Position numbers and translations under genes: made by a program
The notes under the pieces: model-generated
The model's database searches: none
What the model saw: only the letters and a program-made list of their open reading frames with translations
What the model was told of the DNA's origin: nothing
Assembly (NCBI GenBank): GCA_947497475.1
Contig: CANMGS010000001.1
Coordinates: forward strand, 806,001-870,000
Source of the DNA: an uncultured Amylibacter sp.
GTDB taxonomy: Bacteria > Pseudomonadota > Alphaproteobacteria > Rhodobacterales > Rhodobacteraceae
Length of the DNA stretch: 64,000 bases
Reading direction: 5' to 3'
In this document: positions 903 through 10,637 of the stretch, one piece after another
How positions within the stretch are numbered: the stretch's first letter is position 1
How the letters are laid out: every line of letters begins with the position of its first letter

Positions 903-1571
903 CTATTTACGATCTGTTGTTCCAAACCAACGTCTAAAAAAACCATTTATACTAGATTTTTTTTTGTTAAGTTCACTATTCGCAGATTGCGTATACTCTC
1001 CAACTGTTTCAACAGCTTCGCTGATTTGATCAGTAACTGGATCAACATGCCTATTTTTAAAGCGCTGCATAGCACGGTAGATCAGTAGAAAAATTAATAA
1101 TAAAGACGTTATGAAAACAATATTAAACCATGGGATGAGAAATACATTTGGCCCTTCGACTTGCTTGATACGATACGCATTCGGAAAGATTGAAAGTAGT
1201 TTTATGCGCCACCCATAGTGACTGATTGCAACCCAAGCTTCTTCTTTCTTTGCCAAACCTTGTGCTTTTGCATTTAAATTGCCGCTGTCAAATTTTAAAT
1301 AAGGCGGCCAAGACCAATTTGTATCTTCGTTACGATAAACTCTTGGTTCGCCATTTGGCCAAACAGCATTGATAAAACGTACATCCCTTGTGTAGTTCGT
1401 ATTTGTGCCCGCATCTGGGCTGGCCCAAAAAACAGCATATCGACCAACATCCATACGTTTTACATCGGTCCCTACGATTTGAACAATATCACGCGAAGGA
1501 AGCGTATAATTTAGGAACCCTACTAGAACAAAAAGCAATATTCCAAGTATTATGCGTTTAATCCATACCAT
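903..1571 (-). CDS. DUF1523-type membrane protein, last gene of the AAA operon
   Basis: 222 residues with an N-terminal membrane helix (about 5-25), a soluble extracytoplasmic part containing RDVRFI, VYRNEDT and SHYGWR, a second hydrophobic helix (about 145-168), and a charged cytoplasmic tail. The segments around FWASPDAGT, RNEDT and HYGWR match what I know of DUF1523, a Rhodobacterales family of unknown function. The start is the ATG at 1571, 11 nt after the preceding 88-residue membrane protein gene. As the last gene of the operon it is probably an envelope partner of the AAA+ ATPase. Function unknown. Confidence 0.7.
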   Translation of the reverse strand: MVWIKRIILGILLFVLVGFLNYTLPSRDIVQIVGTDVKRMDVGRYAVFWASPDAGTNTNYTRDVRFINAVWPNGEPRVYRNEDTNWSWPPYLKFDSGNLNAKAQGLAKKEEAWVAISHYGWRIKLLSIFPNAYRIKQVEGPNVFLIPWFNIVFITSLLLIFLLIYRAMQRFKNRHVDPVTDQISEAVETVGEYTQSANSELNKKKSSINGFFRRWFGTTDRK

Positions 1572-1582
1572 TGAAATACTCC

Positions 1583-1849
1583 TTAACTGCGGTTCGCTAA
1601 ATAAAGTAATAGAAAAAAGACAAATATAGGTGCTAAAAAAACACCTAATATTAGCTTAGGACGATACGATTTTTGATAATCCATCATTCCCTTTGCAATG
1701 AATTCTGACTTATCTTCTGATTTATCGGATAGTTCGTATTCATCTTTCAATTTACGACGATGTCTTTGACGCATTGAGAAAGACAAAGCTCCGTATGTGA
1801 TCATCAATATGATCATTAAGAGAACTGCATTTCTAATCCATAAAATCAT
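1583..1849 (-). CDS. small two-helix membrane protein in AAA operon
   Basis: I chose the ATG at 1849 (88 residues) because it overlaps the stop of the upstream gene as ATGA, a translational-coupling arrangement; a GTG start 24 nt earlier is possible. The protein has one hydrophobic helix near residues 3-23, a charged middle section rich in Lys, Glu, Asp and Arg, and a second helix near 63-85 containing FVFFLLLYL. I know no family for it. Its place between the 444-residue protein and the DUF1523 protein suggests a membrane subunit of the same machine. Confidence 0.6.
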   Translation of the reverse strand: MILWIRNAVLLMIILMITYGALSFSMRQRHRRKLKDEYELSDKSEDKSEFIAKGMMDYQKSYRPKLILGVFLAPIFVFFLLLYLANRS

Positions 1850-3180
1850 GAGTTTCCCCCTGTTGGGCCCCAAGGCCCTATACGAATGGGTGATGGTTCT
1901 GGTTCTTCCATTGCTGGTTCTGAGCCAAATAACTCTTCACGCGCGCCAGCTTTATCAATTGCATACTCTTCGGACAGAAACTTAACGACATAGTCTTTTT
2001 TTGCATCCGACCATCCACGATATGCATCATAAAACGCATCTTTGTGACAGATAAACAATTGACGAAAATCCAAAGGGGATAGGTCAGCGATCAGCATGTT
2101 AATCAAACTGCGATCAGTATGCTGACTGGATCGCATAGCGTAAAAATAGGCAGGGTGTGTTGCTTTAATTTCAGGCCAAGCACCGCCTGCACTTGCCCAT
2201 CGCCAAACTTGCATAAGGCCATCATGTTCTTTTGGCATTTTAGTGGCATATTTTCGCCCGATAAGGCGCATTTTTTGACGTGTTAAATCACCCAATTCAT
2301 CGCCTGCGCTTGCTGCTGTAGCGATGGTAATAAAATCTATTTTCTGTTGAATAATTGCCGTCACATTTTCATTGCGTTCAGACACTATTGGTTCAGCCAA
2401 TTGATGTGAGTTTAGGAATGAAGCAATTTTATCCCTGTCTTTAAATGTCAGAATATTCTCGACAGGTAGGTTCTTTAAGCTTGGCGAATATTCACGTGCA
2501 ATCACTGTCGGTATTTCTGTATCACGAAAGATATATATACCGCCAAAGTGATTGGCGTAGTAATTACCTTGTGCGTAGACTTTTGGTTTTAACTTGATCG
2601 GGTGGCGTTGAATATTGCCTGTCCGTTTTGCCAACTCAATCATATCTGCGATCAATACATCATCCCACCATGCATCATCTTCCTTCATAAAAGTATCAAT
2701 GTGACCTTGTAATGCAGTTGCTTCGGCCACGTGCTCTTGGACAGTATCCGCTTCAATTTCAATCTGGTTTATATGGAACAGATCGGCAGGTTTATTAATT
2801 TGAAAAACAGAATTTAACAATTCCCCCGCCACAGCTTCACGAGCTGTTAACGCAAAAAGCTCCTCTTCGTTCTCTTCGATATAATCACGGATGATTGTAC
2901 GAGAGGTGGAGAATTTTAAGTTTAATAACGGCGCTTTTTTCTGATCTGTCGTCAACAAGATAAACTGGCGGTTACAGCCATTAGGATTTAGATACAGCTG
3001 ATCTTCTAACTCGTCGCCGATTTCAGGAGAATAACCAGAGATATCAATATGAAATTCCGTCAAAGAGGTTTCTAAACCTGTCAGATGTTTTAATGCACGG
3101 TTATAGCGTGCTACAAGCGCAGGAGAACTGATCTTGATCAGGTTTCCAAACATCAAACCATTTTTGACGAGCCGCATCAT
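1846..3180 (-). CDS. conserved protein of unknown function in AAA operon
   Basis: 444 residues, soluble, no signal peptide or membrane helix. The N-terminus (KISSPALVARYNRALKHL, then GLETSLTEFHID) and the phrase SGYSPEIGDEL are distinctive but match no enzyme family I know; it may belong to a Rhodobacterales DUF family such as DUF6638, from memory and unchecked. No catalytic motif is visible. The C-terminal 25 residues are acidic and proline-rich (about residues 425-438), which suggests a flexible tail. It begins 49 nt after the AAA+ ATPase gene, so it is a likely partner of that ATPase. Confidence 0.65.
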   Translation of the reverse strand: MMRLVKNGLMFGNLIKISSPALVARYNRALKHLTGLETSLTEFHIDISGYSPEIGDELEDQLYLNPNGCNRQFILLTTDQKKAPLLNLKFSTSRTIIRDYIEENEEELFALTAREAVAGELLNSVFQINKPADLFHINQIEIEADTVQEHVAEATALQGHIDTFMKEDDAWWDDVLIADMIELAKRTGNIQRHPIKLKPKVYAQGNYYANHFGGIYIFRDTEIPTVIAREYSPSLKNLPVENILTFKDRDKIASFLNSHQLAEPIVSERNENVTAIIQQKIDFITIATAASAGDELGDLTRQKMRLIGRKYATKMPKEHDGLMQVWRWASAGGAWPEIKATHPAYFYAMRSSQHTDRSLINMLIADLSPLDFRQLFICHKDAFYDAYRGWSDAKKDYVVKFLSEEYAIDKAGAREELFGSEPAMEEPEPSPIRIGPWGPTGGNS

Positions 3181-3229
3181 GGTTAGAAGCCCCTCAATAA
3201 AGCATTAACGATTAACAGAGTTTGATTTC

Positions 3230-5179
3230 TCAACCTTTCTCCTCCAGGTACCGCCGTTTCGCTTCCTCATTACGTCCAAAATCACGCACCATATTTTCAA
3301 TCGCTACCTCATCAGATTTATCTGCATAGCGGAATTCACTATCAGCGTAGCGGTTGATCTCTTGGATCACCATATCCACCGTTATAGGTTGGGCTAATTC
3401 TGCGATCATGTTCTTTTTAGTATCGTAGTCTTTGGACAAGAAAATCTCGGTGTTTTCCATCCATTCATCCGGCAACTCAAAGTCCATCGCACGAACTTTT
3501 ACTGCATCAGTAATGTTTTTAATCGCACGGCCCGTGAACCGTTCATCTGCTTCTTGGATGCCCTTTAGGTATGTCCCAAGCTTGGCAATTGTATCCAAGT
3601 CACCGATATCCGATGATACGCGATCAAAGACGTTTAACAGACCAGTCTCATGCGGCTTAGAATGGCTGTCATAACTTGCAGCCACAGCTTTTTGGATTTG
3701 TTGCGCCGAAAATAAATCATGTTCACCCACAGGGATGTCATGATTTTTACCCATCAAAAGATGTAAGATATCAATATAATCTTCACGTGTCTGAGGGCCA
3801 TCAACCAAGAACCGTGCGCCCGCACGTTGGCGCAACGCATCGTCAACGTTTTCAGGATAATTTGAGAACATTCCAAACGTACAATTGCCACGCACAACTG
3901 TATTTGCGCCAGCAAAACTTTCCATCAGAACAGCCGTAATTTCTAACTGGCCTGCAGACGATTGGCGATCGCCGCGCTTCCCTGCAAGTTGGTCAATATC
4001 ATCGATAGTACCAAAACCAATAACGTTTGGATCAATCACATTTTTTATGAAGTTCTTAGCGTTTTGCGCTGATTTACCTTGGTAGCTGTCGATACTGTCA
4101 GTGCTTAAATTTTCGTACCGAAACGCATAACCTGCATTGTTACAGTAATCATTGATCAGACCAGCCATCATTTGAATAAGGGTGGTTTTACCGGTCCCAG
4201 GCTTACCATCCCCCATAAAGGTAAAGATAAACCCGCCAAGTTCAGCGAATGGATTTAATTTGCGCTCAAAATCGTATGCCATCAGCATTTTTGCCAACTT
4301 CATAGATTGGTACTTCGCAATGTGGTTGCCAACAACTTCGTTCGGCTTCTTAAACGTCATCGTCAGCTTAGATGACTTAGCTGCCGTTGATGGTGCAAAA
4401 CCACTGATATCAAAGTTGTCGGCTTCAACCCGATAATTTACAGAGGTAAATGCCTCTAAACGCGGCGTATTGGCGGCACGCAGGCTGACCTTTTCCATTA
4501 GCTTTTCAAGGAATTTGGTCACAACAGGTATGAGTTTTTCCTCACTGTCTGCAAAAAGAGCCAAGTCCTGATCCAGCTCCCAAAGCGCACCAGTTAAGGC
4601 CAATTGTGGATTGTCTGTTAAAACTTCCTCTACTTCGCCAATATCCACTGCAACTTCAGAGTTCTCTGCATGGACATTTGCCAGTAGATAGTTGGCCATA
4701 TTGGCAAAAACATGAAGGCTTATTAACGCTGAGGATGACAACAGTTCCGTGAATTCAACAGATTTTGCCTTAGCAAGGTTACCTGCCAAATTATCCTTTA
4801 ACAATTCAGTTAAACCTGTTTGATCCGCATATTGATCGGACACCAGATAAGCTGTTGCCAATGCACGGCGCAAAGCGTGCAAGACGCTTGCCTGTAATGG
4901 GCTGGTTAAAGGGTCCTCGTCATCTGAATTCATAACACGCTGAGCAATGTGCACACCTTCAGGGCGCGCTGTGGATTTTGTAACCAAACCAGGTGTTGTC
5001 GAACGAAAACGGCGGCGTGTTCCTATACCCGAAGACTTTTCTGGAGCAGCGGATGTTACATCTGCTTTTTTTGCTAAACGTGGTGTATGATCAAACCCAT
5101 CTAACAACCCTTCGGCAGACGTGTATTTTCCACGAATTAAATCTTCTTTTAGTTCCATCAAATCGGATGTGTTCGACAT
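3230..5179 (-). CDS. AAA+ ATPase, core of the seven-gene operon
   Basis: 649 residues. An N-terminal region of about 290 residues with no recognised domain precedes one AAA+ module: Walker A GKPGTGKTT at 325-333, a Walker B strand ending TIDDIDQ (Asp393, Asp394), a sensor-1-like MFSNYPEN near 437-444 with Asn440, and an arginine-rich RQRAGARF near 450-457 that may hold the arginine finger. The tail after about 560 is helical and charged. No protease, helicase, vWA or membrane segment is present, so this is probably a remodelling ATPase acting on the neighbouring proteins. It starts 9 nt after the 373-residue gene. The substrate cannot be told from sequence. Confidence 0.8.
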   Translation of the reverse strand: MSNTSDLMELKEDLIRGKYTSAEGLLDGFDHTPRLAKKADVTSAAPEKSSGIGTRRRFRSTTPGLVTKSTARPEGVHIAQRVMNSDDEDPLTSPLQASVLHALRRALATAYLVSDQYADQTGLTELLKDNLAGNLAKAKSVEFTELLSSSALISLHVFANMANYLLANVHAENSEVAVDIGEVEEVLTDNPQLALTGALWELDQDLALFADSEEKLIPVVTKFLEKLMEKVSLRAANTPRLEAFTSVNYRVEADNFDISGFAPSTAAKSSKLTMTFKKPNEVVGNHIAKYQSMKLAKMLMAYDFERKLNPFAELGGFIFTFMGDGKPGTGKTTLIQMMAGLINDYCNNAGYAFRYENLSTDSIDSYQGKSAQNAKNFIKNVIDPNVIGFGTIDDIDQLAGKRGDRQSSAGQLEITAVLMESFAGANTVVRGNCTFGMFSNYPENVDDALRQRAGARFLVDGPQTREDYIDILHLLMGKNHDIPVGEHDLFSAQQIQKAVAASYDSHSKPHETGLLNVFDRVSSDIGDLDTIAKLGTYLKGIQEADERFTGRAIKNITDAVKVRAMDFELPDEWMENTEIFLSKDYDTKKNMIAELAQPITVDMVIQEINRYADSEFRYADKSDEVAIENMVRDFGRNEEAKRRYLEEKG

Positions 5180-5188
5180 AGTGTGCCT

Positions 5189-6310
5189 CTATTTATAACT
5201 TAAAATTTTTGAATTCTGACCGACAACATATTTACGGATATTCTGCATTCCCGCTGGTTTTTTCTCTTCTAAAACCTGATAAGCGCGGTGCGGCAATATC
5301 AAGGATTGGCGTACATCAGTTGCCCCCTGCTTGCCCATAAACATTGGGTCAATATCGTATACTTGGCGTTCAGTAGAGCGGAAGAAGCCCGTTTTTTCAT
5401 ATTCAACGCTTGCAGATTGCAAGGTTTCAACAGTCCATGCCAATGCCCAATCCAACCCTGGCTCTCCACTTGCATCGGCCAAGACATCTCGTAGTGGTCC
5501 ATGTTGTTCTGTAAACGCGTGACTGTACATTGGACCAAGATAAAAACGACGCAAACGTATAGGATGTAGATCATCGAAATCCTGATCAAAGCCGCGGGCA
5601 ATCGTAACCAATTTCAAATCAGATACAGCTTGAGCCATCAAATGTGTTTGCACACGTGGCCAGCGGCGTTCATCACGTGGCAAAGCTTTGTCACCTGAGT
5701 CTTCTAATTCCATTAAATATACTATTGGAACATTTGTTCGGCTATCATAATTGGCCCAATGGACTAAATAGCTACGACGTTCCATCGTATTATTCCCCGT
5801 CCAAATTGCTTGTGGATCATTCTGCGAAAGGAACAATTGGGCATCATTTAAAAATTCGTAATAAATCCGTTGCGATAACGCATATTGTAATTTGGTTGGG
5901 GCTTCTTGTTCCATCAAGATATGATTAATCATATCCTTTTTCAGGCGTTTTTGACTTGGCAGAGATTTTAAATGGTTGGACGCCTGCATAGCATCAGCTG
6001 CCATTTGCAACAATTCTTGGAATATCGGAAAGCCACTATCAGATTTATCAATGTTTAATAATGCACTCACCCCATCACCCACACGATTTGCCATCAGAAA
6101 CTTATAGGACAAAGCGGTAAAAGTATATGAAAGTGACATCAGATAGCCACGCAAAACAGTCGCTTCTGCTTTGTTTAGAAACTGCTCTTGCTCTGATAAC
6201 TCTGCGACATCATCAAGATGTTTGATGATACGTTCGAACTTAGCAAAATATCGACGCGTTGCTTGCGCATCTTTAAGCGTTTTATGATCTTTGGTGTAGT
6301 CCGTTTTCAT
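5189..6310 (-). CDS. conserved protein of unknown function in AAA operon
   Basis: 373 residues, mostly helical by composition, with no signal peptide, membrane helix or motif I recognise. The N-terminal 190 residues are rich in Leu, Lys and Gln (FAKFERIIKHLDD, then LNKAEATVLRGYLMSLSYT). The C-terminal half contains aromatic strands such as RRFYLGPMYSHAFTEQHG. Its ATG directly follows the TAA of the preceding 2-helix membrane protein (TAAATG), and its stop is 9 nt before the AAA+ ATPase start, so these genes are very likely translated together. The function is unknown; a scaffold or adaptor role for the ATPase is a guess. Confidence 0.65.
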   Translation of the reverse strand: MKTDYTKDHKTLKDAQATRRYFAKFERIIKHLDDVAELSEQEQFLNKAEATVLRGYLMSLSYTFTALSYKFLMANRVGDGVSALLNIDKSDSGFPIFQELLQMAADAMQASNHLKSLPSQKRLKKDMINHILMEQEAPTKLQYALSQRIYYEFLNDAQLFLSQNDPQAIWTGNNTMERRSYLVHWANYDSRTNVPIVYLMELEDSGDKALPRDERRWPRVQTHLMAQAVSDLKLVTIARGFDQDFDDLHPIRLRRFYLGPMYSHAFTEQHGPLRDVLADASGEPGLDWALAWTVETLQSASVEYEKTGFFRSTERQVYDIDPMFMGKQGATDVRQSLILPHRAYQVLEEKKPAGMQNIRKYVVGQNSKILSYK

Positions 6311-6571
6311 TTACCCGTTATTCCAAATATTCTTAAGGTCTTGATAAAAAAGGTATATTATCGCCGCCCAAAACAGCACCAAAAAAAACCATACAATATA
6401 GTGCACTAAATGTGTGCCTTCCCAATATCTCCCAGTCCAAAGTAGAAGTAATAGAGGCATCCCAATCGGAATTAGAACTCGGTTGAAATACCTTTTTTTA
6501 TCTTCAGTTAGCTCAAATAAAGATTCATAAATCAGATCAAGCCTACGGAATATATCAAGCCCCATATGCAT
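6311..6571 (-). CDS. small membrane protein in AAA operon
   Basis: About 86 residues from the ATG at 6571; ATGs at 6565 and 6580 are equally possible. All overlap the end of the coiled-coil gene, which argues for coupling. It has a short charged N-terminal part (LTEDKKRYFNR), one hydrophobic helix containing PIGMPLLLLLW, a short loop, and a second helix (IVWFFLVLFWAAIIYLFY). This predicts a hairpin with both ends in the cytoplasm. No family is recognised. It may anchor the coiled-coil protein or the ATPase at the inner membrane. Confidence 0.55.
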   Translation of the reverse strand: MHMGLDIFRRLDLIYESLFELTEDKKRYFNRVLIPIGMPLLLLLWTGRYWEGTHLVHYIVWFFLVLFWAAIIYLFYQDLKNIWNNG

Positions 6572-7631
6572 TCTTATCATGTTTCTCGACAATCTTTTCA
6601 AACCGGCGAGCAAAACGTTCGTCTGATTTGGCTTTTTCTTCCAGAACTTTACGCGCGAACACCATATGGTCTTCGTGTTTTTCCATCATCTCTGCCATAC
6701 GTTGATTGGTCGCAGAACCGATAGCTGCCATCGCTGATTGCGCTTCTTGGTCAGTAGCTACGCCAATTTCATTGATCTGGTGTGCCACATCTTGTTGTTG
6801 CGCTGTTTTCAAAGATTTAGTTAACGCATCATATAAAACAACACGTTGCTTTGTATCTGTTTGCAACTTGTTGATCAGAACCATTTGTGTGGCGGCTTGG
6901 TTTTGCAAGCTATCCACCCAAGACTTTCCTTTTTCAATGTAACGTTCAAGTGTTTGGCTTTCTGCAAGCTTAACCTGTTCTTGTTGGGCAAGCTCATTAT
7001 ATTTGCCATTCATTTCAGCCAGCTCAGTTTCCAACTTCGTACGAGCAGCCGCATCTTGTTCCATAGAAATCTTGTTCTCTAATTCGATAACTTTAGGATC
7101 CATGGCCAAAATTTGTGCTTTAATATCTTCTAATACACCAACCGCCGTTTCGCGGTCTGCAAGAGTAGATGTTAAATTGACTTCGACCTTTTCCTTATGT
7201 GTATTCAAAACACTTAACTGATCTTGCAGCAGTTTAGTAATAACGTCTGATTTACTGATCAAATCTTGTAATTTATCATCAATGCTCGCTGTACGCATAC
7301 GCTCTTGGCGCAGACTCTCAGAACGCTGCTTTGAAAATACACCTATGAATGTTTCCCAACCAGATTTAGAGCGCATTTCATCAAAATCTTTAGAAAAGCC
7401 CGCCGTAACATCATCCAAACCCATAATAAGTTCTGCAATGTTAGCATTCATAGCTTCGGAGTGGTTATGCACATCATCTAAAGATGCATTTTCGATATCG
7501 ATTGTAATGTCACTTCCGGCTTTTAATTTATCTCGTGCAGTTTCAATTTTTTGAGACAATTCAGCGATTTTTGCTTGTGCTGCGGCAACTTCATCTTGTG
7601 ACTTTATAATTTGTGTTTCGAAATCTGACAT
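6555..7631 (-). CDS. coiled-coil protein, first gene of the AAA operon (TelA-like architecture?)
   Basis: 358 residues, nearly all predicted helix, with heptad-like runs at about 1-40, 105-225 and 290-345 and very few aromatic residues. There is no signal peptide or membrane segment. The overall plan of long antiparallel-looking helices with repeated Gln, Lys and Glu, plus a segment like LQTDTKQRVVLYDALTKSL, reminds me of TelA/KlaA 'toxic anion resistance' proteins, which also sit in operons with AAA or Ter proteins. This is a resemblance of architecture only, not a family assignment. It is the promoter-proximal gene of the operon. Confidence 0.65.
   Translation of the reverse strand: MSDFETQIIKSQDEVAAAQAKIAELSQKIETARDKLKAGSDITIDIENASLDDVHNHSEAMNANIAELIMGLDDVTAGFSKDFDEMRSKSGWETFIGVFSKQRSESLRQERMRTASIDDKLQDLISKSDVITKLLQDQLSVLNTHKEKVEVNLTSTLADRETAVGVLEDIKAQILAMDPKVIELENKISMEQDAAARTKLETELAEMNGKYNELAQQEQVKLAESQTLERYIEKGKSWVDSLQNQAATQMVLINKLQTDTKQRVVLYDALTKSLKTAQQQDVAHQINEIGVATDQEAQSAMAAIGSATNQRMAEMMEKHEDHMVFARKVLEEKAKSDERFARRFEKIVEKHDKNAYGA

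Positions 7632-8201: not shown

Positions 8202-10637
<2,436 letters not shown>

Follow-up and report, generated by a model that had tools for sequence, protein, structure and literature searches.

A four-gene AAA+ ATPase core with a separable membrane dyad and two variable gene slots in Rhodobacterales: a possible mobile conflict system

Background

Classical AAA ATPases form rings that remodel a protein by pulling it through their pore. They have an aromatic pore loop 1 and a Walker B motif of the form hhhhDE, in which the Glu is catalytic; the ATPase VPS4 in addition carries MIT and Vps4_C domains. The subject of this work is an operon with an AAA+ ATPase gene, located at positions 903–7631 on the minus strand of a 64,000-nucleotide (nt) stretch of DNA (hereafter the window) from an uncultured Amylibacter sp. 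of the Rhodobacteraceae (assembly GCA_947497475.1, contig CANMGS010000001.1, positions 806,001 to 870,000).

Two described groups of systems are comparable with this operon. Bacterial operons that combine PspA/Snf7 proteins with AAA+ ATPases are proposed to perform ATP-dependent membrane remodelling (PMC11237479, mSystems 2024). The present operon likewise encodes an AAA+ ATPase with membrane proteins, but its core contains no PspA or Snf7 match, and the main text of that survey mentions neither DUF6638 nor TelA or XpaC. The MoxR-vWA ternary conflict systems (PMC7159879, eLife 2020) are presented as having a fixed core driven by nucleoside triphosphate (NTP), replaced effectors and lateral transfer, all of which have counterparts here; effector displacement within a preserved operon, variability and lateral transfer are given there as marks of conflict systems. 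The present operon differs from them in having a classical-type AAA ATPase and no MoxR or vWA match among its seven proteins (Pfam and NCBIfam, up to an expectation value (E) of 1). Moreover, its variable genes are separate, code mostly for small membrane proteins, and are only putative effectors.

The families DUF6638 (PF20343), DUF1523 (PF07509) and DUF2333 (PF10095), all with direct members here or in relatives, have no functional name. Among the PubMed Central papers searched, the gene combination was not found in print, no paper on DUF6638 was found, the four on DUF1523 are unrelated by title, and a single one was found for DUF2333. No role was found assigned to any of the four core proteins described below. 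The parts are of known kinds, namely an AAA+ remodeller and an effector-swapping operon.

Results and discussion

A core inherited as a unit

The existence of the operon is confirmed, although its seven genes are not a set of equals. It consists of a four-gene core, a membrane dyad and one variable gene. The core comprises CC358 (6555–7631), U373 (5189–6310), the AAA+ ATPase (3230–5179) and the DUF6638 protein (1846–3180), the dyad comprises TM96 (1583–1849) and DUF1523 (903–1571), and the variable gene is TM100 (6311–6580). The first-pass annotation of the window had described a single fixed seven-gene set; this has to be given up, as TM100 has no clear homologue in the loci searched, TM96-DUF1523 is separable from the core, and in S. 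meliloti the neighbours of DUF6638 are instead genes of the DUF559 and DUF2333 families.

CC358, the ATPase and DUF6638 are each present in 89 of the 149 genomes of the order, and the three sets of genomes are identical, an identity that, given the kinship among genomes, is not readable as a simple probability (the comparison covered these three of the four core genes). At the thresholds used, any of the 149 genomes that carries one of these genes also carries the other two, and in one genome (G544) all three are reduced to fragments. These three genes occur in 42 of the 72 genera of the order.

All 20 fetched relatives have the order CC358-U373-AAA, and 19 of them continue with DUF6638 and DUF1523, the last genes being absent from one locus (L034). 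The same order without strand mismatch was found for CC358-U373 in 105 loci, for U373-AAA in 107 and for AAA-DUF6638 in 99; a few genomes are included twice in these counts, so that the 99 loci with both AAA and DUF6638 represent 95 distinct ATPase sequences. A conserved neighbourhood beyond the window genome had been anticipated, and the comparison finds the core far outside it.

With the window genome included, ATPase relatives are present in 14 of 61 genomes, among them 12 of 33 of the genus, and in 8 of 387 genomes of the class (single sequence, E 1e-15), i.e., the ATPase is rare outside the order. The ATPase profile detected it, the window genome again included, in 24 of 299 genomes of the phylum, and in 23 of 299 in a second draw. 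Named loci among the best 80 of 428 relatives include Rhodobacteraceae, Hellea-type Caulobacterales, Roseibium, Stappia and Cohaesibacter. The ATPase is also found in Rhizobiaceae, in one genome of another class (G607) and, at 43% identity, on Vibrio plasmids of 0.88–0.94 Mb; two Vibrio stretches have the four core genes followed by mfd. The operon is thus not confined to Rhodobacterales; its set of partners, suggested at first to be undescribed, was not found in the papers searched. No match to phages was obtained by tblastn at E 1e-5, and among 53 matches of a pattern scan of IMG/VR none is a relative. In two of the Vibrio plasmids (0.88 and 0.93 Mb), which belong to two species, the core lies in the same surroundings, with RNase H, mfd and LysM genes and many unnamed ones.

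A tree of the concatenated core proteins (100 taxa, 1811 columns) was read against organism names. G607 belongs to another class, yet its operon falls among those of Rhodobacteraceae (support 1.0 for L143 with L040). The window, in turn, groups with the operons of Hellea-type Caulobacterales (support 0.997). These placements suggest that the core moves between bacteria as a block. The distance matrices of the four core proteins correlate at 0.92–0.97, as co-inheritance predicts.

Two variable slots

Gaps of more than 200 nt occur between AAA and DUF6638 (slot 2) in 67 of 99 loci and between CC358 and U373 (slot 1) in 36 of 105. The corresponding counts are 6 of 107 for U373-AAA, 0 of 81 for DUF6638-TM96 and 0 of 80 for TM96-DUF1523. 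In the window, slot 2 (3181–3229) is empty, with only 49 nt, while it is occupied in most relatives. Slot 1 of the window is occupied by TM100, a small membrane protein with one to two helices and a possible start at ATG 6580 (89 residues), for which the best tblastn match in the loci searched, its own genome aside, has an E of 0.009.

Slot-1 open reading frames (ORFs) were defined by a gap of more than 150 nt and a length of at least 55 residues, and slot-2 ORFs by a gap of more than 200 nt and at least 80 residues. A same-strand ORF of at least 80 residues is present in slot 2 of 59 loci, and the longest ones, taken per locus, form 34 clusters, of which the largest covers 13 loci. The fuller count is 81 ORFs in 63 loci, with at least two predicted transmembrane (TM) segments in 50 of the 81, compared with 13 of 120 flanking ORFs. 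Slot 1 has 39 ORFs in 32 loci, 28 of them with at least two TM segments; the slot-1 alignment includes 35 of the 39 together with TM100. Slot clusters are based on BLAST at E 1e-3 to 1e-4, a level at which remote homology between short TM proteins escapes detection.

The turnover of the slots was assessed in pairs of loci binned by AAA identity. A common slot-2 cluster is found in 5 of 12 pairs at ≥ 95% AAA identity, the content of the other 7 having been replaced so that no gene family is common, and in 23 of 35, 13 of 24 and 6 of 120 pairs at 90–95%, 85–90% and 80–85%, respectively. Slot-1 similarity was found in none of the pairs in the same bins (0/10, 0/26, 0/11 and 0/76). Turnover is therefore fastest in slot 1, and slot 2 gives a mixed picture.

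Domain contents were determined for 61 of the 81 slot-2 ORFs, the other 20 being for the most part doubtful frames or near-identical copies from the most frequent family. The Pfam matches are DUF559/MTES_1575, PIN_10, DUF433, DUF3825, DUF2971, HATPase and BrkB, and the NCBIfam matches include two anti-phage families, ProA and Hhe. Eight PADLOC models were matched at E 1e-3, and none by 61 control ORFs drawn at random from the 120 flanking ones (longest within 1.5 kb; scanned with PADLOC only), although the controls are longer, flanking ORFs averaging 477 residues against 162 in slot 2. Slot 1 includes a match to a Phd/YefM-type antitoxin. In one relative (L105:9947-11094), slot 2 holds two ORFs, the first resembling a DUF433 regulator and the second PIN-like, an arrangement that resembles a toxin-antitoxin module.

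The membrane dyad

TM96 is a two-helix membrane protein that more likely starts at ATG 1849 (88 residues), as do most aligned homologues. DUF1523 (PF07509, 3.3e-62) is composed of a TM segment, a loop of about 125 residues (21–145), a second TM segment and a tail. It is present in 143 of the 149 genomes of the order, including 54 of the 60 without the core. In 88 of the 89 genomes with the core, its distance from DUF6638 is less than 5 kb, and 80 of these genomes have a single DUF1523 copy (81 are listed, and G566, with a second copy, was subtracted). A TM96-type frame stands beside DUF1523 in 14 of 16 core-less genomes hand-picked from the 54. Because core-less genomes keep TM96 and DUF1523 side by side, the dyad is separable from the core; the ATPase core has been gained by, or lost from, a dyad that is able to stand alone.

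Four additional DUF1523 copies in core-bearing genomes (G000, G551, G495 and G014) have no TM96-type frame beside them (0/4). One of these is the second DUF1523 gene of the window genome (G000:C1:542454-542975; L199), which is without TM96. Two gene families, c12 and c13, lie upstream of it and also upstream of DUF1523 in a core-less locus (L192).

In a family of genomes (L145–L151) that groups with S. meliloti (support 1.0), the core is present and neither TM96 nor DUF1523 is detectable. S. meliloti has a DUF559 gene and an insertion sequence element between AAA and DUF6638, and after DUF6638 a DUF2333 protein, for which two TM segments are predicted. A ChvI-bound fragment within S. meliloti SMc02733 is reported (PMC3687685), but this locus tag could not be mapped to the operon, so that it serves as no more than a lead.

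The ATPase

The ATPase has 649 residues, with a classical-AAA-like module at about residues 280–600 (Pfam AAA, 3.2e-12). Its score against Pfam AAA (PF00004) is 47.4 bits, over the curated cut-off of 21.2. Up to E 1 the only Pfam families matched are AAA, AAA_19, ABC_tran and RNA_helicase; MIT and Vps4_C are absent. In agreement with the first-pass annotation, no protease, helicase or nuclease domain was found beyond weak P-loop matches (Pfam, NCBIfam, PADLOC and Protein Data Bank (PDB) searches).

Motif conservation was examined in 109 aligned sequences, that of the window plus 108 ORFs taken from the loci of relatives, with a few genomes included twice. The Walker A motif (residues 323–333, GDGKPGTGKTT; 4181–4213) has Lys331 in all 109. 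Each position of the pore-loop-like motif SYQG (residues 365–368; 4076–4087), the sensor-1 Asn440, Arg450, Arg452, Arg456 and Arg551 are also invariant (109/109). In HMMER alignments with i-AAA protease, VCP-like and Rpt-type AAA proteins, SYQG aligns with the pore-loop 1 position, which suggests that it may line a pore. The Walker B motif (residues 391–396, TIDDID; 3992–4009) deviates from the classical form. Its acidic pair is Asp393-Asp394 in all 109 sequences and also in those of Vibrio and S. meliloti, and in the HMMER alignments Asp394 falls on the catalytic Glu. Walker A and the sensor Asn are thus intact as first described, while the same description of Walker B has to be corrected.

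The best PDB matches are weak: SKD1/VPS4 and fidgetin-like 1 at E of about 1e-4 with the single sequence, i-AAA at 2e-4 (4e-5 in another search), and also VCP-like and Rpt proteins. Because these matches are weak and spread over so many groups, no named subfamily is assigned. Compared with the classical AAA proteins (VPS4/SKD1, fidgetin-like 1, katanin, Rpt/PAN, CDC48, i-AAA), the ATPase is alike in the Pfam AAA match, Walker A, SYQG, the sensor-1 Asn and the finger-region Arg residues. It differs in having Asp for the Walker B Glu, Arg551 at a position presumably occupied by Ala in classical AAA, and an N-terminal region of its own of about 280 residues, and in the lack of a MIT, Vps4_C or protease match. 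Judged from its sequence, it appears classical-AAA-like with one defining feature, the Walker B Glu, missing.

The partner proteins

CC358 (358 residues) is the first core gene product. Its AlphaFold model is all-helical with a long central hairpin, and has a mean predicted local distance difference test (pLDDT) value of 69, rising to 82–91 over residues 141–240. In 21 sequences the mean column identity is 74% for both the ATPase and CC358; in a wider set of 16 sequences it is 62% and 55%, respectively. Foldseek returned nothing for CC358 at E 0.001, and the VIA-align rows are mixed helical proteins (MukF, syntaxin, pore-forming toxins) with a best Z of 13.6, which is usual for helical models. 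A match to the effector-associated domain 9 (EAD9) in 9 of the 21 members (best E 0.0066) was not counted, because 52 families match the CC358 coiled coil as weakly or better. No ESCRT-III or PspA match is among the 25 listed of these 52 weak families for the 21 members.

A PspA/ESCRT-III partner elsewhere in the locus was also considered and rejected, a PspA-like ORF near the cluster having been found in one genome only (one query). This genome is Stappia sediminis (L144:3402-4115; the L081 genome), in which a PspA-like gene and then a small membrane-protein gene lie just downstream of the operon. A similar pair is present in the window genome, away from the operon (L168).

U373 (373 residues) is soluble, with a helical N-half and a mixed beta C-half, and belongs to no Pfam family. 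Its model is confident (pLDDT 86, predicted template modelling score 0.86) and has no structural match at E 0.001 in PDB or BFVD by Foldseek. A weak likeness of the C-half to the T-fold (urate oxidase/DHNA) was seen, in that 41 of 50 VIA-align rows are T-fold enzymes, but with Z of only 3.6–5.1.

The DUF6638 protein (444 residues; PF20343, 8e-186) has one PDB profile match, a thermosome fragment at E 0.0094, and profile searches of PDB gave nothing usable for CC358, U373 or DUF6638. DUF1523, DUF6638 and generic AAA are the only Pfam names among the seven proteins, and none of the seven has an NCBIfam match near a cut-off. No characterised relative of CC358, U373 or DUF6638 was found in Pfam, NCBIfam or PDB profile searches. 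The first-pass view that the ATPase and its large partners do not belong to an already characterised complex is thus upheld, as none was found. In PADLOC 2.0.0, no core protein matches a system; the AAA domain alone hits TRIP13 (1.2e-6) and IetA (6e-4, 0.0038), and the best E for operon proteins other than the ATPase is 0.0034.

Possible function

Our favoured reading, held tentatively, is that the operon encodes an AAA+ system, mobile and modular, that is anchored at the inner membrane and is probably a conflict (anti-invader) system. The four obligate soluble proteins would build the core, in which the AAA+ subunit probably forms a ring whose SYQG loop draws a partner protein into the pore and through it. 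CC358 would be the likeliest client, because its conservation equals that of the ATPase and a long helical hairpin is predicted, and U373 and DUF6638 may have adaptor or sensor roles. The docking site of the core would be the TM96-DUF1523 dyad in Rhodobacterales, with the DUF1523 loop probably periplasmic, and perhaps a DUF2333 membrane protein in Rhizobiaceae. The two slots would supply exchangeable, mostly small multi-TM proteins that are restrained or deployed by the core, and ATP-driven disassembly of a CC358 complex might toggle these membrane effectors on or off.

The conflict role is preferred over housekeeping remodelling because variable membrane proteins in a fixed, block-transferred operon correspond to the published marks of conflict systems (PMC7159879). 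Displacement of the putative effectors is seen in close relatives, partially for slot 2, where 5 of the 12 closest pairs share a family, and high lateral transfer is seen in the core tree read against organism names and in the Vibrio megaplasmids. The first-pass annotation had proposed a membrane-linked remodelling machine, not a known defence system. The membrane proteins encoded beside the ATPase agree with the former, and the latter holds against PADLOC, but the variable slots, the block transfer and the conflict-type slot genes make a conflict role likelier than was then allowed. More doubtful is the narrower proposal that conflict systems of this mobile, NTP-dependent kind form a class of their own, in which a classical-type AAA+ ring with an Asp-type Walker B, together with the obligate partners CC358, U373 and DUF6638, would be mounted on the widespread envelope dyad TM96-DUF1523 and would arm or restrain interchangeable small membrane effectors from the two slots.

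Several points weigh against a conflict role. The core sequence is well conserved, whereas for most sensors of invaders this is not so. Relatives at 85–95% AAA identity often have a slot-2 family in common, and one such family recurs in 13 loci. No core protein matches a PADLOC system except through the AAA domain (TRIP13, IetA), and, because the 61 ORFs next to the operon have no PADLOC match, the loci are no obvious defence islands. Matches to PADLOC were obtained for no more than 10 of the 61 slot-2 ORFs, a small share. Slot ORFs were assigned without a gene finder, and some of them are probably spurious (GC-rich frames in L044, L122 and L130). Asp394 may make ATP hydrolysis weak or slow, and any contact among the operon proteins is presumed from the gene set.

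A housekeeping role in membrane remodelling or quality control follows closely in likelihood. The AAA+ ring would then disassemble a CC358 polymer or complex at the inner membrane via DUF1523/TM96, as VPS4 acts on ESCRT-III, and the slot proteins would be lineage-specific adaptors, or passengers at insertion-tolerant joints. Such a role is consistent with the conservation of the core, the retention of the pore-loop-like motif, the VPS4/SKD1 and fidgetin-like proteins as best single-sequence PDB matches, the helical hairpin predicted for CC358, the proximity of DUF1523 to DUF6638 in nearly all core genomes, and the frequent sharing of slot 2 at 85–95% AAA identity. It is not easily reconciled with the absence of the core from 60 of the 149 genomes of the order, with block transfer, or with slot-2 replacement in more than half of the closest pairs. 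Moreover, neither of the hallmarks of VPS4/ESCRT-III is found: the ATPase has no MIT or Vps4_C match, and CC358 is not an ESCRT-III or PspA protein by profile, a PspA-like gene being adjacent in one genome only.

It is unlikely that the operon acts in envelope or toxic-anion stress in the manner of TelA/XpaC, CC358 then being a TelA that has diverged. CC358 is similar to TelA in size and helical make-up, and hhalign aligns the two colinearly over most of both proteins, but the score of 23.0 is barely above the range of 31 controls obtained by reversal or shuffling (10.8–22.0). The TelA profile (PF05816), with E up to 10, matches only a separate, true TelA gene of the window genome (G000:C2), and the ORFs around seven TelA genes have no match to the operon profiles at E 1. 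Still less probable is a nucleic-acid or clamp-loader-like ATPase acting on DNA, for which a PHROG clamp-loader match over residues 290–600 (2.3e-8) and the sensor-2-like place of Arg551 may be cited, since no DNA-binding or clamp-type Pfam family is found among the core partners, the pore-loop-like motif is invariant, and membrane proteins surround the core.

The TelA gene of the window genome lies on contig C2 in a separate cluster (L161:4578-10950) of TerC, XpaC-like, TelA, lipoprotein, SPFH-like and zinc-ribbon membrane protein genes, of which only TelA is named by profile and the rest are read from sequence. A 'GPWGA' stretch in the SPFH-like protein resembles the C-terminal tail 'R(V/I)GPWG' of many DUF6638 proteins.

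The core is common in Rhodobacterales and occurs also in Rhizobiaceae. Under the conflict reading, PADLOC-DB 2.0.0 (2023) would have missed a sizeable immune-type system, whose slots would offer a ready collection of small membrane effectors of many kinds. Under the remodelling reading, Alphaproteobacteria would have a VPS4-like machine with its own dedicated client. In both cases the slot genes, the dyad and the constant set of core genes lend themselves to direct genetic tests.

Layout and surroundings of the operon in the window

All seven minus-strand ORFs at 903–7631 were recovered at the positions first annotated. The longest open frames of the region, from stop to stop, are 652, 452, 373, 358 and 250 codons, and these five main frames exceed the longest frame in 50 dinucleotide shuffles of the region (186 codons). 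The touching and overlapping of genes described earlier is also confirmed: CC358 and TM100 overlap by 59 nt, counted from the TTG start of TM100, the TAA stop of TM100 abuts the U373 ATG directly, and DUF6638 and TM96 are joined by ATGA at 1846–1849. The gaps are 9 nt for U373-AAA, 49 nt for AAA-DUF6638 and 11 nt for TM96-DUF1523. Scans for promoters (11 found, 20.6 expected) and terminators (11 and 6.9) were not used.

An empty site was sought in the nearest relative (G018, GyrB 99% identical), but synteny ends at the end of gyrB and none is readable. When positions 8202–10619 of the window are compared with three relatives of the genus (L224, L225, L226), nucleotide similarity likewise stops at the 3' end of gyrB, and within the stretches compared nothing downstream of gyrB is common to the window and these relatives. 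gyrB is upstream of the operon, with 570 nt between, and the operon ends 78 nt from a convergent gene for a protein with a Crp-type helix-turn-helix. The G+C content in 2-kb bins is somewhat lower in the first 8 kb of the window (0.38–0.43) than elsewhere in it (0.41–0.49).

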